In this document: piece after piece, positions 44,278-49,540 of the stretch
How positions within the stretch are numbered: the stretch's first letter is position 1
Layout: each line of letters begins with the position of its first letter
Program-made: the position numbers and the translations under genes
Notes under the pieces: model-generated
Told to the model about the DNA's origin: nothing
The model's database searches: none
Seen by the model: only the letters and a program-made list of their open reading frames with translations
Assembly (NCBI GenBank): GCA_031291575.1
Contig: JARLIT010000338.1
Span: 1 to 64,000 of the forward strand
DNA from: Ancalomicrobiaceae bacterium
GTDB taxonomy: Bacteria > Pseudomonadota > Alphaproteobacteria > Rhizobiales > Ancalomicrobiaceae
Direction: 5' to 3'
Length of the DNA: 64,000 nucleotides

Positions 44278-45111
44278 ATGCAATCCATCTGCCTGCCCAA
44301 CGGTGAAACGATCCCCCAGCTCGGCCAGGGCACCTGGATGATCGGCGACAGCCGCGGCCGTCGCGCCGAGGAGATCGCAACGCTGCGCGAGGGGATCGAC
44401 CTCGGCCTCAGCCTGATCGACACGGCGGAAATGTACGGCGAGGGCCATACGGAAGAGGTGGTCGGCGAGGCGATCGCCGGTCGCCGCGACGCGGTGTTCC
44501 TCGTTTCCAAGATTTATCCGACCAATGCCACACGGACCGGAACGCTGGCAGCCTGCGAGCGCTCGCTGAAGCGGTTGAAGACCGACCGGATCGATCTCTA
44601 CCTCCTGCACTGGCGTGGGCGAGTGCCCCTGGCCGAGACGGTCGCGGCGATGGAAGGCCTGAAGGAAAGCGGCAAGATCCGCCACTGGGGCGTCTCCAAC
44701 TTCGATGCCGACGACATGCAGGAGCTCTCCGGCGTGCCACACGGCGGCGAGGTGGCGACCAACCAGGTGCTCTACAACCTGACCCGGCGCGGCATCGAAT
44801 GGGATCTCATCCCGTGGTGCGTGAAGCACCGAACCCCGGTCATGGCCTATTCCCCGGTCGAGCAGGCGCGGCTGCTGGCACACCAGGGTCTGAAGACCCT
44901 CGCTCAGGAGATCGGCGCGACGCCGGCGCAACTGGCGCTCGCCTGGGTGATGGCGAAGAACGGCGTCATCGCCATCCCGAAGACCGGCCGGCGTGAGCAC
45001 CTGCGCGAAAACGTCGGCGCGCTCGAGATCAAGATCACGCCGGAGATTGCGGCAAAGATCGACGCACTGTTCCCGCCGCCGAAAGAGGCGACTTCGCTCG
45101 AGATGCTGTGA
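44278..45111 (+). CDS. Aldo/keto reductase
   Basis: A 277-residue NADPH-dependent (beta/alpha)8 oxidoreductase. Family residues are visible: GLSLIDTAEMYGEG (Asp and Tyr of the catalytic tetrad), VFLVSKIYP (Lys), YLLHWRG (His), GVSNFDADDM, and the C-terminal IPKTGRREHLREN cofactor site. ATG 44278 (MQSICLPNGETIPQLGQGTW) is the family-like start. The substrate cannot be told from sequence. It lies upstream of the hydrogenase operon but with a 522-base gap. Confidence 0.9.
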   Translation: MQSICLPNGETIPQLGQGTWMIGDSRGRRAEEIATLREGIDLGLSLIDTAEMYGEGHTEEVVGEAIAGRRDAVFLVSKIYPTNATRTGTLAACERSLKRLKTDRIDLYLLHWRGRVPLAETVAAMEGLKESGKIRHWGVSNFDADDMQELSGVPHGGEVATNQVLYNLTRRGIEWDLIPWCVKHRTPVMAYSPVEQARLLAHQGLKTLAQEIGATPAQLALAWVMAKNGVIAIPKTGRREHLRENVGALEIKITPEIAAKIDALFPPPKEATSLEML

Positions 45112-45633
45112 GATCCGCTTCGGGGCCGGCGGTCAAGGCTTGCCCATCTCCTGCGCCGACGAACGCCTGGCCACCTGGGCAGAGAATCGTCCTTGGTCCC
45201 CCCGATGGAGACCGCGGCGCGCGACCGCGCATTCGCTTGCGCAAGATTCGCACAAGCGCCATTCGGGTTAGCGCGGGGGGCGGTGGGAAGCACTGAGGGC
45301 CGACAATCGCCGGGCATTCGCCGGGAAGTCTCATGCCGCCAAGGCCATAGCCCGCATCCGGCGCATTCGCCCGGGCGCTGCGCAATTGCGGGTTCGGACT
45401 ACTACCAAGCCCTTAGTGTTGAGGCATCTCATTGCTTCTATCCGCAGCCTTAGTCAGGGTCCGGACAGCGCGTTCCGCCCCACCGGGCCAACCGACACAC
45501 CATCGAGACGTTCGCTGCGACCCGACCGTGCTTACGCCGGCGGCCGGGACGAGGGGAACGGCGATTGTGGAGGGGTGGCCACCCGCGCCGCGGCAGCCTG
45601 CCGATGGCGCGACAGCTCCTTCACGGAGGTCAC
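45112..45633 (+). promoter_or_regulatory. Upstream region of the [FeFe]-hydrogenase operon
   Basis: This 522-base gap has no gene that I can support. No clear FNR box (TTGAT-N4-ATCAA) or sigma-54 site (TGGCAC-N5-TTGC) is seen. An imperfect palindrome at 45234-45258 with outer arms CGCTTG and CAAGCG is the best operator candidate. GGAGG lies six bases before the ATG at 45634. Confidence 0.45.
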
Positions 45634-47631
45634 ATGACAGAGATCGCCTATGGCGTTTGGCAAGGCGTCGTCCGCAATAGCCGGACGGATCAGCTACCCT
45701 CGACGGACGACTTCCCGGAGCTGAAGAACTTCGCAGAGTTCAACGAGGGCAATCCCGTGCGAGCCTTCTTCGGCGACAAGGGGTTCTTCGTCTTTGACGA
45801 CAAGGTCAGCCTCGTCGACTCGTTCTGGCACTATTTCAACAAGGCGGCCGAACAGTCCTGCGGCAAGTGTACGCCGTGCCGGGTCGGCACGGTGCTGGTG
45901 CGCGACGCGCTCGACGCCATGCGTCGCGGGCTTGACTCCTCGCTCGACCTCGACCAGGTCCAGATCCTCGCCGAGCAGATGCGCGCTACGTCGCTGTGCG
46001 GCCTCGGGCAGACCTGCGCCAATGCCTTCCTCGACGCGCTCACGCATTTCCGCGACAGAATCGAAGCCGAAATCGCCCGCAAGGTGCCGATCCGCGCCCA
46101 GAACGCCATGACCTACATGACGGCGCCCTGCATCGAGGCCTGCCCGTCGAAGATCAACGTTCCCCGCTACATCGACTATATTCGCGACGGCCGCCCGGCG
46201 CATTCGCTCGGCGTCATCCTGCAGAAATATCCGATGGCGGCCACCTGCGGCCGCGTCTGCGTCCGCTTCTGCGAGATCGCCTGCCGGCGCAACCTCGTCG
46301 ACGAGGCGGTCGGCATCAAGACGCTGAAGCGTTACGTCGCCGACCAGCAGAAGAACGGCCACTCCATCATCTTCAATCACGAGATGATCGCCGAGACATT
46401 GAAGCCGAGCATGAAGGTGGCGGTGATCGGCGCCGGCCCGGCCGGCATCTCCTGCGCCTACCACCTGTTGCTGCACGGCTATCATGTCGACGTGATCGAG
46501 GCGATGGATACCGGCGGCGGCATGGCGGCGATCGGCATCCCGAGCTACCGGCTGCCCAAGGACGTGCTGAAGTCGGAGACCGACATCATCCTCGCCCTCG
46601 GCGGACGCTTTCTCTACAATCAGGCGCTCGGCCGTGACTATTCGATCGATGACCTGTTCAAGCGCGGCTACAAGGCGGTGTTCCTGGGCCTTGGCTGCCA
46701 GCAGGGCACGAAGATGGGCGTCGCCGACGAGGATCCGACGCTCGAAGGCTACGAATCCGGCATCGGCTTTCTGCTCAAGGTGCACGACCACGTCGCTGGC
46801 ACCAAGCCGGTCAAGCTGGAAGGCAAGGTCGTCGTGGTCGGCGGCGGCAACGTCGCGATGGATTGCGTGCGCTCGGCCATCCGCATGGGGGCATCAAGTG
46901 TGCACCTCGTTTACCGCCGCACCGAGGCTGACATGCCGGCCGATCACGAAGAGGTCGAGGCGGCGCATGCCGAAGGCATCTTCTTCCATGTGCTGACCAA
47001 CCCGTCGCGCATCCTCTCGGAAAACGGCAAGGTTACCGGCGTCGAACTGGTCTCGATGGAGCAGACCGATCCCGACGCCAGGGGACGGCGGAACGTCAAG
47101 CCGATTCCAGGCTCGGAACACGAATTGCAGTGTTCGACGATCATCGCTGCCATCGGCCAGCAGGTGCAGTCCGGCGCCGTCCTGCCGAAGGATGGCGTCA
47201 AGCTCGACCGCTGGAACTGCATCGACGTCGATCAGGCCGGACAGACCTCGCGCCCCGGCGTGTTCGCCGGTGGCGACTGCGCCTCCGGTCCCTCGACGCT
47301 GATCTCGGCCATGGCCGCCGGCCTGAAGGCAGCGCGGTCCATCGACGACTGGATCAAGCTCGGCCACGTCCGCTTCTTCCCGCGCTCGCGCATCCGCAAG
47401 ATGCTGACCGAAAACCATCTGCTCGTCACCGACCTCGTCGAGGTGCCCGTCCGGAACGAGTACCGGGTACATCACCCCGAACTCGATCCGGAAGTGCGCA
47501 AGAACATGTTCGAGGAAGTCGAACAGACGATCAGTCCCGAAGCCGCCTATGCCGAGGCCAAGCGCTGCCTCCGCTGCTACCGCGTCTACGAGGTGATCAC
47601 CGAACAACCCATCCCGGAAGGAGCGGCCTGA
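45634..47631 (+). CDS. NuoF-stub/GltD-type FAD- and NAD(P)H-binding iron-sulfur oxidoreductase (hydrogenase partner)
   Basis: A 665-residue fusion. Residues about 45-150 match only the C-terminal iron-sulfur domain of NuoF/HydB (CGKCTPCRVG with Cys76, 79, 82, and SLCGLGQTCANAF), without the FMN/NADH domain. Residues about 165-240 form the GltD N-terminal double-cluster domain (CIEACPSKINVPRYIDY; CGRVCVRFCEIAC). Then come an FAD Rossmann fold (VAVIGAGPAGISCAYHL) and an NAD(P)H fold (VVVVGGGNVAMDCVRSAIRMG), and a Cys pair CLRCYR near the end. This is an NfnB/GltD-like NAD(P)H:acceptor module. It ends 2 bases before hydA and almost certainly forms a complex with it. Confidence 0.9.
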   Translation: MTEIAYGVWQGVVRNSRTDQLPSTDDFPELKNFAEFNEGNPVRAFFGDKGFFVFDDKVSLVDSFWHYFNKAAEQSCGKCTPCRVGTVLVRDALDAMRRGLDSSLDLDQVQILAEQMRATSLCGLGQTCANAFLDALTHFRDRIEAEIARKVPIRAQNAMTYMTAPCIEACPSKINVPRYIDYIRDGRPAHSLGVILQKYPMAATCGRVCVRFCEIACRRNLVDEAVGIKTLKRYVADQQKNGHSIIFNHEMIAETLKPSMKVAVIGAGPAGISCAYHLLLHGYHVDVIEAMDTGGGMAAIGIPSYRLPKDVLKSETDIILALGGRFLYNQALGRDYSIDDLFKRGYKAVFLGLGCQQGTKMGVADEDPTLEGYESGIGFLLKVHDHVAGTKPVKLEGKVVVVGGGNVAMDCVRSAIRMGASSVHLVYRRTEADMPADHEEVEAAHAEGIFFHVLTNPSRILSENGKVTGVELVSMEQTDPDARGRRNVKPIPGSEHELQCSTIIAAIGQQVQSGAVLPKDGVKLDRWNCIDVDQAGQTSRPGVFAGGDCASGPSTLISAMAAGLKAARSIDDWIKLGHVRFFPRSRIRKMLTENHLLVTDLVEVPVRNEYRVHHPELDPEVRKNMFEEVEQTISPEAAYAEAKRCLRCYRVYEVITEQPIPEGAA

Positions 47632-47633
47632 TC

Positions 47634-49478
47634 ATGGATACAATCGCCAACCCGTCCGCGGCTGAGGCCACCGTGTCCCTGACCATCAACGGCAAGCCGG
47701 TGATGGGCCAGGAGCACGAGACGATCCTGCACTGCGCCAAGCGCCACGGGTTCTTCATCCCGACGCTGTGCGAACTGGAAGACATCGACCATACGCCGGG
47801 CACGTGCCGCGTCTGTCTCGTCGAAATCGAGCAGTCGGGCGGCGACAACAAGCATATGGTCACCTCCTGCAACACGCCGGTTCGCGAGGGCATGAAGATC
47901 GAGACGCGCTCGAAGCGGGCGCGCGACATGCAGAAGCTGCAGGTCGAATTGATCCTGGCCGACCACAATCAGGACTGCGCCACCTGCACGCGGCACGGCT
48001 CGTGCGAGCTGCAGGATCTCGCCCAATACGTCGGCTTGAAGGAAAACCGCTTCTACGATCCGGAGCGCGTCGCCGCCCGTATCGTCGACACCTCGTCGCC
48101 GGCGATGGTGCGCGACATGTCGAAATGCGTGCGCTGCCAACGCTGCGTCACCGTCTGCCGTAATTTCCAATCGGTCGACGCACTGGTGATGGTCGGTACT
48201 GGCTTCGACACCGCCGTCGGCCTGAAGTACGGCCTCGACCAGAAGAACAGCGCCTGCGTTACCTGCGGCCAGTGCGTCCTCGTCTGCCCGACGGGCGCTC
48301 TCGGCGAGAAGGACGAGACCGATCGGGCGCTCGACTACATCTACGATCCCGAACTCATCACCGTGCTGCAGTTCGCGCCTGCCATCCGCGTCGGCTTCGG
48401 CGAGGAATTCGGCCTGCCGCCCGGCACCAACGTCGAAGGCAAGATCATCGCCGCGGCGCGAAAGCTCGGCGTTGACATCGTGCTCGATACCAATTTCGGC
48501 GCCGACGTCGTCATCATGGAGGAAGGCACCGAGCTTCTGCGTCGCCTCAAGCATCGCGGCCAGCCGACGTTCACCTCGTGCTGCCCGGCCTGGATCAACT
48601 TCGCCGAGATGCATTATCCCGACATCCTGCCGCTGTTGTCTTCCACTCGCAGCCCGCAGGCGGTCGTCGGCAAGATCGCCAAGACCTACCTGCCGGAAAA
48701 GATGGGGCTTGATACCAAGAAGATCCGCGTCATCTCGATCATGCCGTGCACGGCCAAGAAGGACGAGATCGTGCGGCCGCAGCTCGGCGAAGACGGGGTG
48801 CCGGATGTCGACGTGGTGCTGACCACGCGCGAATTCGCCCGACTGTTGCGGCGCGAGGGGATCGACTTCGTCGCACTGGAGCCGTCGAGCTTCGACAACC
48901 CCTACATGAGCGAATACACCGGCGCCGGCGCCATCTTCGGTACCACCGGCGGCGTGATGGAGGCCGCGCTGAGGACGGTCTACAAGGTCGTCAACGGCAA
49001 GGAGCTCGACAAGATCGAGCTGACGCAGTTGAGGGGCTTCGAGGGCGTCAGAGCGGCGGTCGTCGATCTCGGCGGAACGGTCGGCGAGGTGAAGATCGCC
49101 ATGTGTCACGGCCTCGGCGAGACGCGCGCGCTGGTCGAGCAGATCCGCGCCGGTACGGTCGATTTCGACTTCGTCGAGGTCATGGCCTGCCCCGGCGGCT
49201 GCGTCGACGGCGGTGGCACCTTGAGGTCGAAGAAGCAGTATCTGCCGCATGCGTTGAAGCGGCGCTCGACGCTGTTCAAGATCGACGCCGATCGCAAGGT
49301 GCGGCAGTCGCATAACAACGTCCAGGTTCAGGCGCTCTACCGCGACTTCCTCGAAGCGCCGAACTCGGAGAAGGCCCACCACCTCCTCCACACGTTCTAC
49401 ACCGACCGCAAGCGCGCCATGTCGCTGACGGTCAAGGAAGTGTGGGAAGAAATCACCATGAGCACCAGCGTCTACTGA
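47634..49478 (+). CDS. hydA: [FeFe]-hydrogenase catalytic subunit
   Basis: A 614-residue multi-cluster hydrogenase. Order: 2Fe-2S ferredoxin domain (about 12-95; CELEDIDHTPGTCRVCLVEI), His-ligated 4Fe-4S (HNQDCATCTRHGSCELQ), two 4Fe-4S clusters (CVRCQRCVTVCRN and CVTCGQCVLVCPTG), the H-cluster domain and the small-subunit tail (HHLLHTFYTDRKR). All three signatures are intact: L1 TSCCPAW (314-320), L2 MPCTAKKDE (370-378) and L3 MACPGGCVDGGG (517-528). The H-cluster Cys are 317, 372, 519 and 523, and Cys316 is the proton-relay position. AAGGAG precedes the ATG. No maturase gene (hydE, hydF, hydG) is in the window. Confidence 0.97.
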   Translation: MDTIANPSAAEATVSLTINGKPVMGQEHETILHCAKRHGFFIPTLCELEDIDHTPGTCRVCLVEIEQSGGDNKHMVTSCNTPVREGMKIETRSKRARDMQKLQVELILADHNQDCATCTRHGSCELQDLAQYVGLKENRFYDPERVAARIVDTSSPAMVRDMSKCVRCQRCVTVCRNFQSVDALVMVGTGFDTAVGLKYGLDQKNSACVTCGQCVLVCPTGALGEKDETDRALDYIYDPELITVLQFAPAIRVGFGEEFGLPPGTNVEGKIIAAARKLGVDIVLDTNFGADVVIMEEGTELLRRLKHRGQPTFTSCCPAWINFAEMHYPDILPLLSSTRSPQAVVGKIAKTYLPEKMGLDTKKIRVISIMPCTAKKDEIVRPQLGEDGVPDVDVVLTTREFARLLRREGIDFVALEPSSFDNPYMSEYTGAGAIFGTTGGVMEAALRTVYKVVNGKELDKIELTQLRGFEGVRAAVVDLGGTVGEVKIAMCHGLGETRALVEQIRAGTVDFDFVEVMACPGGCVDGGGTLRSKKQYLPHALKRRSTLFKIDADRKVRQSHNNVQVQALYRDFLEAPNSEKAHHLLHTFYTDRKRAMSLTVKEVWEEITMSTSVY

Positions 49479-49501
49479 CGGGTGCCGCATACCGAACTGA
49501 A

Positions 49502-49540
49502 AGCCGGGGCGTCGGAGACGACGTGCCCGGCTTTTTCTTG
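49502..49540 (+). terminator. Intrinsic terminator of the hydrogenase operon
   Basis: Arms starting AAGCCGGG (49502-49509) and ending CCCGGCTT (49527-49534), with the inner pairs GTCG/CGAC extending the stem, are followed by TTTTTCTTG. It lies 23 bases after the hydA stop. Confidence 0.9.

Follow-up and report, generated by a model that had tools for sequence, protein, structure and literature searches.

A two-gene locus in a 64,000-nucleotide stretch of an Ancalomicrobiaceae draft genome (contig JARLIT010000338.1, positions 1 to 64,000; hereafter the window) combines a gene for a GltD-like fusion protein (45634..47631; ATG start, 665 aa) with a HydA gene (47634..49478; ATG start, 614 aa) for the catalytic subunit of a group A (M3-type) [FeFe]-hydrogenase. 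Residue numbers are counted within each protein, and all features of the locus given below lie on the + strand. Judged from sequence, the pair probably constitutes a soluble heterodimer, an [FeFe]-hydrogenase that is linked to NADPH and does not bifurcate. The chances are about even that such pairs form a widespread class of their own: two-subunit, non-bifurcating [FeFe]-hydrogenases specific for NADPH, in which the NADH/flavin mononucleotide (FMN) module of HydB is swapped for a StnC-like NADPH/flavin adenine dinucleotide (FAD) module with a Lys-ligated proximal cluster, and the docking cluster of HydB alone is kept. An earlier note on this DNA had reported a GltD-like gene and, two bases after it, an intact H-cluster enzyme with all L1, L2 and L3 signatures; open reading frames, motifs and profiles agree with that description. 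The soluble NAD(P)H-linked complex proposed there is likewise still the best inference, except that the signatures point to NADPH over NAD(H).

The partner protein is a NuoF-C/GltD fusion

The partner had been taken for a GltD/NfnB-like oxidoreductase. Its GltD-type character stands, whereas its fusion to the C-terminal part of NuoF (NuoF-C) and its relocated CxxC had been missed: by domain and motif evidence it is not a plain GltD, and consists of a NuoF/HydB C-terminal [4Fe-4S] domain followed by a StnC/Nfn-Bfu-type GltD domain. The fusion is predicted to carry FAD and three [4Fe-4S] clusters and to be the subunit that oxidises NADPH. The profile match to the NuoF/HydB C-terminal domain spans residues 43-147 (PF10589, E 7.6e-23), and its core (45829..46068, residues 66-145) contains the ligands C76, C79, C82 and C122, the predicted electron exit and docking site for HydA. 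The FMN/NADH domain of NuoF is absent according to profile searches (CDD itself was not run), and the match to nuoF_fam, at 62.5 bits, lies under the cut-off of that family.

In residues 156-575 the protein follows the GltD/NfnB family, with its Fer4_20 and FAD/NAD(P) regions. The Fer4_20 domain (46099..46356, residues 156-241) carries C166, C170, C205, C209, C213 and C217 as well as K232 (codon 46327-46329), which aligns with K170 of StnC; V176 stands in place of C114. The FAD and NADP(H) Rossmann core (46411..47358, residues 260-575) contains R306, equivalent to StnC R239, and R428-R429 within a YRR motif. The last 90 residues (576-665) carry a CLRC motif (C645 and C648; 47566..47577). It represents the first CxxC of the GltD family, a part of the distal [4Fe-4S] cluster that has changed place here, and its counterparts in the alignment are the N-terminal CLQC in NfnB and StnC 565. 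The equivalent NfnB segment, of about 35 residues ending in CLQC, is N-terminal, while in StnC and the NfnA of Nfn-Bfu it is C-terminal as in the partner. In both alignment and fold, these two proteins are the best matches of the GltD part, relocated CxxC included. In agreement, the best structural matches of the AlphaFold model of the partner were 9n5v_A (Z 40.0, root-mean-square deviation 3.7), 9bov_A (Z 40.0, 3.4) and 8oh5_C (Z 38.4, 3.4), covering 466-477 residues (8oh5_C: 466), with NfnB and GltD ranking behind. The model has a predicted local distance difference test score of 78.4 and a predicted template modelling (pTM) score of 0.76, with low confidence in the cluster-binding loops 165-175 and 203-226.

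Across 56 distinct sequences, all 12 proposed cluster cysteines, K232, R306 and R428-R429 are invariant. The FAD of the GltD domain in StnC receives electrons from NADPH without bifurcation, and three Cys together with K170 ligate the proximal cluster; NfnB has a Glu at the K170 position (PMC10482914). This bears on the possibility that the GltD flavin bifurcates in the manner of NfnB, coupling H2, NADP(H) and ferredoxin. The GltD domain is an NfnB homologue, and R306 occupies the position of NfnB R201. However, the proximal-cluster residue is Lys in 56/56 sequences, as in the non-bifurcating StnC, which has the Arg too. Furthermore, the pair has no adjoining NfnA subunit and no ferredoxin domain, no HydBC was found in the draft genome, and the B2 ligands C438/H525/C531 are replaced across the clade by S/N/D, mostly E, and mostly A/I/V/Q, respectively. 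Given the Lys and the absence of HydBC and of B2 ligands, electron bifurcation was dropped as the leading idea, and we regard it as improbable.

HydA has intact motifs for catalytic and accessory clusters

Motifs and profiles mark HydA as a complete group A, M3-type [FeFe]-hydrogenase with H-cluster motifs, Fe_hyd_SSU segment and accessory clusters all present. The H-cluster domain (48360..49214; Fe_hyd_lg_C, E 9.7e-88) has intact L1 FTSCCPAW (313-320), L2 IMPCTAKKDE (369-378) and L3 VEVMACPGGCVDGGG (514-528), and an Fe_hyd_SSU segment (49254..49409, E 1e-19) is fused at the C-terminus. The NuoG-like accessory part (47667..48302) holds ligands for four clusters that are invariant in 26 sequences: C46/C58/C61/C79 for a [2Fe-2S] cluster, H111/C115/C118/C124 for a His-Cys [4Fe-4S] cluster, and C165/168/171/218 and C175/208/211/214 for two further [4Fe-4S] clusters. 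In two early-branching pairs (L097 and L101), L1 reads FTSCSPGW rather than FTSCCPxW; HydA1 of A. woodii likewise has TSCSPGW.

The maturases are encoded on other contigs of the same genome, as hydG-aspA-hydF and as hydE. A silent hydrogenase or an H2 sensor, an idea that may draw on the statement that the relative R. rubrum lacks maturases (PMC4967309), is the most remote of the alternatives considered, given that HydE, HydF and HydG are all present here, sensor domains are lacking and the HydA motifs are intact and conserved.

A predicted ferredoxin-free route from NADPH to the H-cluster

In the proposed mechanism, NADPH would reduce the FAD in the GltD domain, and electrons would pass to the proximal [4Fe-4S] cluster (three Cys and K232) and on to the distal cluster, to which the C-terminus contributes C645/C648. 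Their exit would be the NuoF-C [4Fe-4S] cluster (C76/79/82/122), docked against the NuoG-like front part of HydA; the accessory clusters would then carry them to the H-cluster for the reduction of protons to H2, without involvement of ferredoxin. Where HydB homologues do not bifurcate, electrons reach the HydA-type subunit from the B1 cluster alone (PMC9304861), and B1 is exactly the cluster that the fusion retains. We propose the ferredoxin-free chain because the ligands are of StnC type, B1 is kept, B2 is lost and HydBC is absent. Alternatively, the distal GltD cluster may deliver electrons straight to the NuoG-like clusters of HydA, as inside StnC, in which case the NuoF-C domain would mainly serve as a dock. 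Gene order, domain content, invariant ligands, clade structure and the lack of a bifurcation module are direct observations, whereas NADPH specificity, the cluster order, the direction and the physical contact of the subunits are all inferred.

The chain would be reversible, venting NADPH as H2 during anoxic growth when H2 is low and making NADPH when H2 is high. Simple thermodynamics puts the equilibrium H2 from NADPH at an estimated 68 Pa for an NADPH/NADP+ ratio of 1 and at 3.4 kPa for a ratio of 50. Fermentative venting and H2 recapture are both plausible, because the genome also encodes PFOR and nifH.

Several points weigh against this mechanism. The best NCBIfam match of HydA is the model for NADH-dependent [FeFe] hydrogenase group A6 (NF040763), at 743.7 bits and below the curated cut-off of 765. 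A read-through model of both proteins, built with the genes from locus L063, reached a pTM of 0.67, lower than the 0.76 of the partner by itself, and its joint arrangement was not matched by any solved chain. In addition, the Lys chemistry on which the mechanism draws by analogy is known for StnC K170 only, and dinucleotide specificity is not safely read from sequence. The group A6 match fits the same heterodimer with NAD(H) as its physiological partner, and a dimeric, NADH-dependent, non-bifurcating HydAB does exist in Syntrophus aciditrophicus (PMC7311640). Like that enzyme, the present pair would be a two-subunit, pyridine-nucleotide-linked [FeFe]-hydrogenase operating without ferredoxin. 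The beta subunit of the Syntrophus enzyme, however, is an FMN/NADH NuoF-type protein (PMC7311640), whereas the domain that confers NADH use in such enzymes is absent from the fusion. The YRR motif, shared with the NADPH-using StnC and NfnB and invariant in the 56 sequences, suggests together with homology a preference for NADPH; we consider an NAD(H) partner unlikely, though the least so of the alternatives.

Strict gene adjacency and a patchy distribution

The earlier note called for a check of conserved adjacency, and the outcome was uniform: HydA lies directly downstream of the partner on the same strand in 74/74 GltD-fusion records, which include duplicates of the same genomes and comprise 56 distinct sequences, with gaps of -43 to +34 nt (stop codon counted). 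A fusion scan of named genomes yielded 64 loci, and searches of the family and order added more. The pairs were found mostly through the GltD protein, and the converse, from HydA to partner, is less well tested; a HydA-based search of the window's family returned five HydAs, four with the partner adjoining on the same contig and a fifth cut by the contig end with its partner on another contig.

The hosts are mostly Proteobacteria. They comprise alphaproteobacteria (Pleomorphomonas, Magnetospirillum, Tropicimonas, Blastochloris, Rhizomicrobium and Siculibacillus), Betaproteobacteria (Paludibacterium, Formivibrio and Uliginosibacterium) and Desulfovibrionales, among others; the closest named genome is an Ancalomicrobiaceae metagenome-assembled genome (MAG), at 91%. 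Within the window's order the distribution is patchy (32/397 genomes, 7/141 genera), and in an even sample of the phylum the window's own genome is the sole carrier (1/398).

The 49 GltD-partnered HydAs form one clade (Shimodaira–Hasegawa-like approximate likelihood ratio test 100), apart from 22 others that are mostly HydB-partnered. That tree was made by a quick method without bootstrap and has three reference enzymes on long branches, so we claim no placement relative to groups A1 and A3. The GltD domains of the pair also form one clade (100/100), separate from Stn, Nfn and a HoxF-GltD fusion encoded in the same genome.

Some further observations concern individual relatives. In Rhizomicrobium-type genomes and an Eisenbacteria-labelled MAG (L064, L065, L067, L119 and L074), a second HydA, 37-40% identical, lies a few kb from the pair, with a NuoF-type gene before it in L067 and L074. 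Paludibacterium yongneupense has two different GltD-HydA pairs (L092 and L094), with maturases beside one only. Copies on contigs labelled Eisenbacteria and Verrucomicrobium (L074 and L084) are nested among alphaproteobacterial ones, for which mis-binning is as likely as transfer.

Comparison with known [FeFe]-hydrogenases and flavin systems

In HydDB, group A2 is glutamate synthase-linked, with a role listed as undetermined or putative; it is recognised when the protein encoded right after HydA has a GltA/GltD-type domain and lacks NuoF (PMC5037454). The present pair resembles A2 in that a group A HydA is genetically linked to a GltD-type protein. The A2 membership raised in the earlier note is nevertheless not supported under the published rule, which would not call this pair A2: the partner precedes HydA, and it includes a piece of NuoF, the C-terminal domain, though not the FMN domain. 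The A2 proposal that H2 oxidation supplies reductant to glutamate synthase accords with the GltD-like partner and with the putative role in HydDB. It is very unlikely here: no gltB adjoins the pair, the N-terminus of the partner is a NuoF docking domain, and the neighbours in relatives are hydrogenase maturases. In many relatives, hydG, aspA and hydF, and sometimes hydE, adjoin the pair. The aspartate ammonia-lyase gene aspA is found in most hydG/hydF clusters of the clade, usually between the two genes, including that of the window's genome (L004, G000:C150) and those of L085, L089, L092, L095, L096, L099, L105, L106 and L107.

With StnABC and Nfn-Bfu (8oh5, 9n5u and 9bov) the pair shares a GltD with C-terminal CxxC, the proximal-cluster Lys, unlike the Glu of NfnB, and NuoG-like acceptor clusters. 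In Stn, however, GltD is joined to a NuoG-like part and delivers to a bifurcating HydBC core, whereas in the present pair it is joined to NuoF-C and would deliver to HydA; neither HydBC nor the bifurcating BfuBC core was found in the genome. By comparison with bifurcating HydABC (A3) and Bfu, the pair has no HydB with an FMN/NADH domain, no HydC and no Cys, His, Cys ligands of B2. In Clostridium thermocellum, Cthe_3003/Cthe_3004 were proposed as an NADPH-linked dimer, and extracts have high NADPH-hydrogenase activity (PMC3492117); as described there, an [FeFe] HydA likewise lies beside a gene resembling that for the glutamate synthase subunit that uses NADPH. Alphaproteobacterial HydAs and maturases, those of Pleomorphomonas and Phaeospirillum included, were noted in 2016 without a GltD partner (PMC4967309), and we found no paper on such a partner in alphaproteobacteria, nor a bench study of the present pair, in a search that left out most subscription journals. 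The concept of an NADPH-linked pair is thus already known, while we found no description of the fusion with NuoF-C, of a StnC-type set of ligands, of the strict adjacency or of the clade.

Genomic context and flanking signals

Neither NuoE/HydC nor a full HydB adjoins the pair, which, as proposed before, sets it apart from bifurcating HydABC. A bifurcating HydBC elsewhere in the genome, named in the earlier note as part of the evidence that would count against its reading, was looked for and not found; the genome is a 388-contig draft, 99.3% complete, so that this absence is strong but not absolute. The genome contains no other [FeFe]-hydrogenase, and no BfuB-like protein with a ferredoxin domain was found in it. 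The NuoF-type proteins found were limited to HoxF-GltD, one subunit of a formate dehydrogenase and that of complex I.

HoxF-GltD (1055 aa; G000:C346:12092-15256, equivalent to L149:9093-12257, - strand) belongs to a [NiFe]-hydrogenase cluster, with hoxU, hoxY and hoxH downstream to L149:6321. It retains the [2Fe-2S] part at the N-terminus together with the FMN and B1 parts. Unusually, it also has the B2-type ligands of bifurcating HydB (DNCMVD, DHIRAKRCRAGTC), with GltD in place of the ferredoxin domain, and it may act as a three-way enzyme on H2, NAD and NADP. Only 2/297 genomes of the order carry it, both of the genus to which the window belongs. HoxF-GltD and the partner of HydA are collinear in NuoF-C, GltD and C-terminal CLRC (617 aligned columns, 36% identity), but HoxF-GltD keeps the FMN part and the B2-type ligands and serves a [NiFe]-hydrogenase. 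An origin of the partner by truncation of HoxF-GltD may be considered in view of this layout, but the GltD-domain tree does not unite them and places HoxF-GltD elsewhere (84/82, on a long branch).

The leader and terminator assigned to the pair are both borne out. The 522-base leader (45112..45633), partly kept in a sister genome, separates the pair from an upstream aldo/keto reductase gene ending at 45111. An intrinsic terminator hairpin (49499..49535; 16 pairs, dG -27.4 kcal/mol, z -3.7) with a T-run behind it was found by folding, a simple scan having overlooked it, and the gene beyond it is on the opposite strand. The leader matched no Rfam family and contains no FNR consensus at up to one mismatch (<=1) and no sigma-54-like sites, which across the window are not above chance. 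Leader positions 45419-45434 (TTGAGGCATCTCATTG) are nearly completely conserved in the sister genome and form a loose FNR/FixK-like inverted repeat that falls short of the consensus at one mismatch.

Implications

For the glutamate synthase-linked [FeFe]-hydrogenases, to which HydDB assigns no determined role, the clade supplies a specific architecture that can be put to the test in bacteria already in culture (Pleomorphomonas, Magnetospirillum, Blastochloris and Rhizomicrobium). The HydDB rule, which looks at the downstream gene, can overlook such enzymes. As a predicted minimal NADPH-to-H2 enzyme, the pair would also be of interest for biohydrogen.

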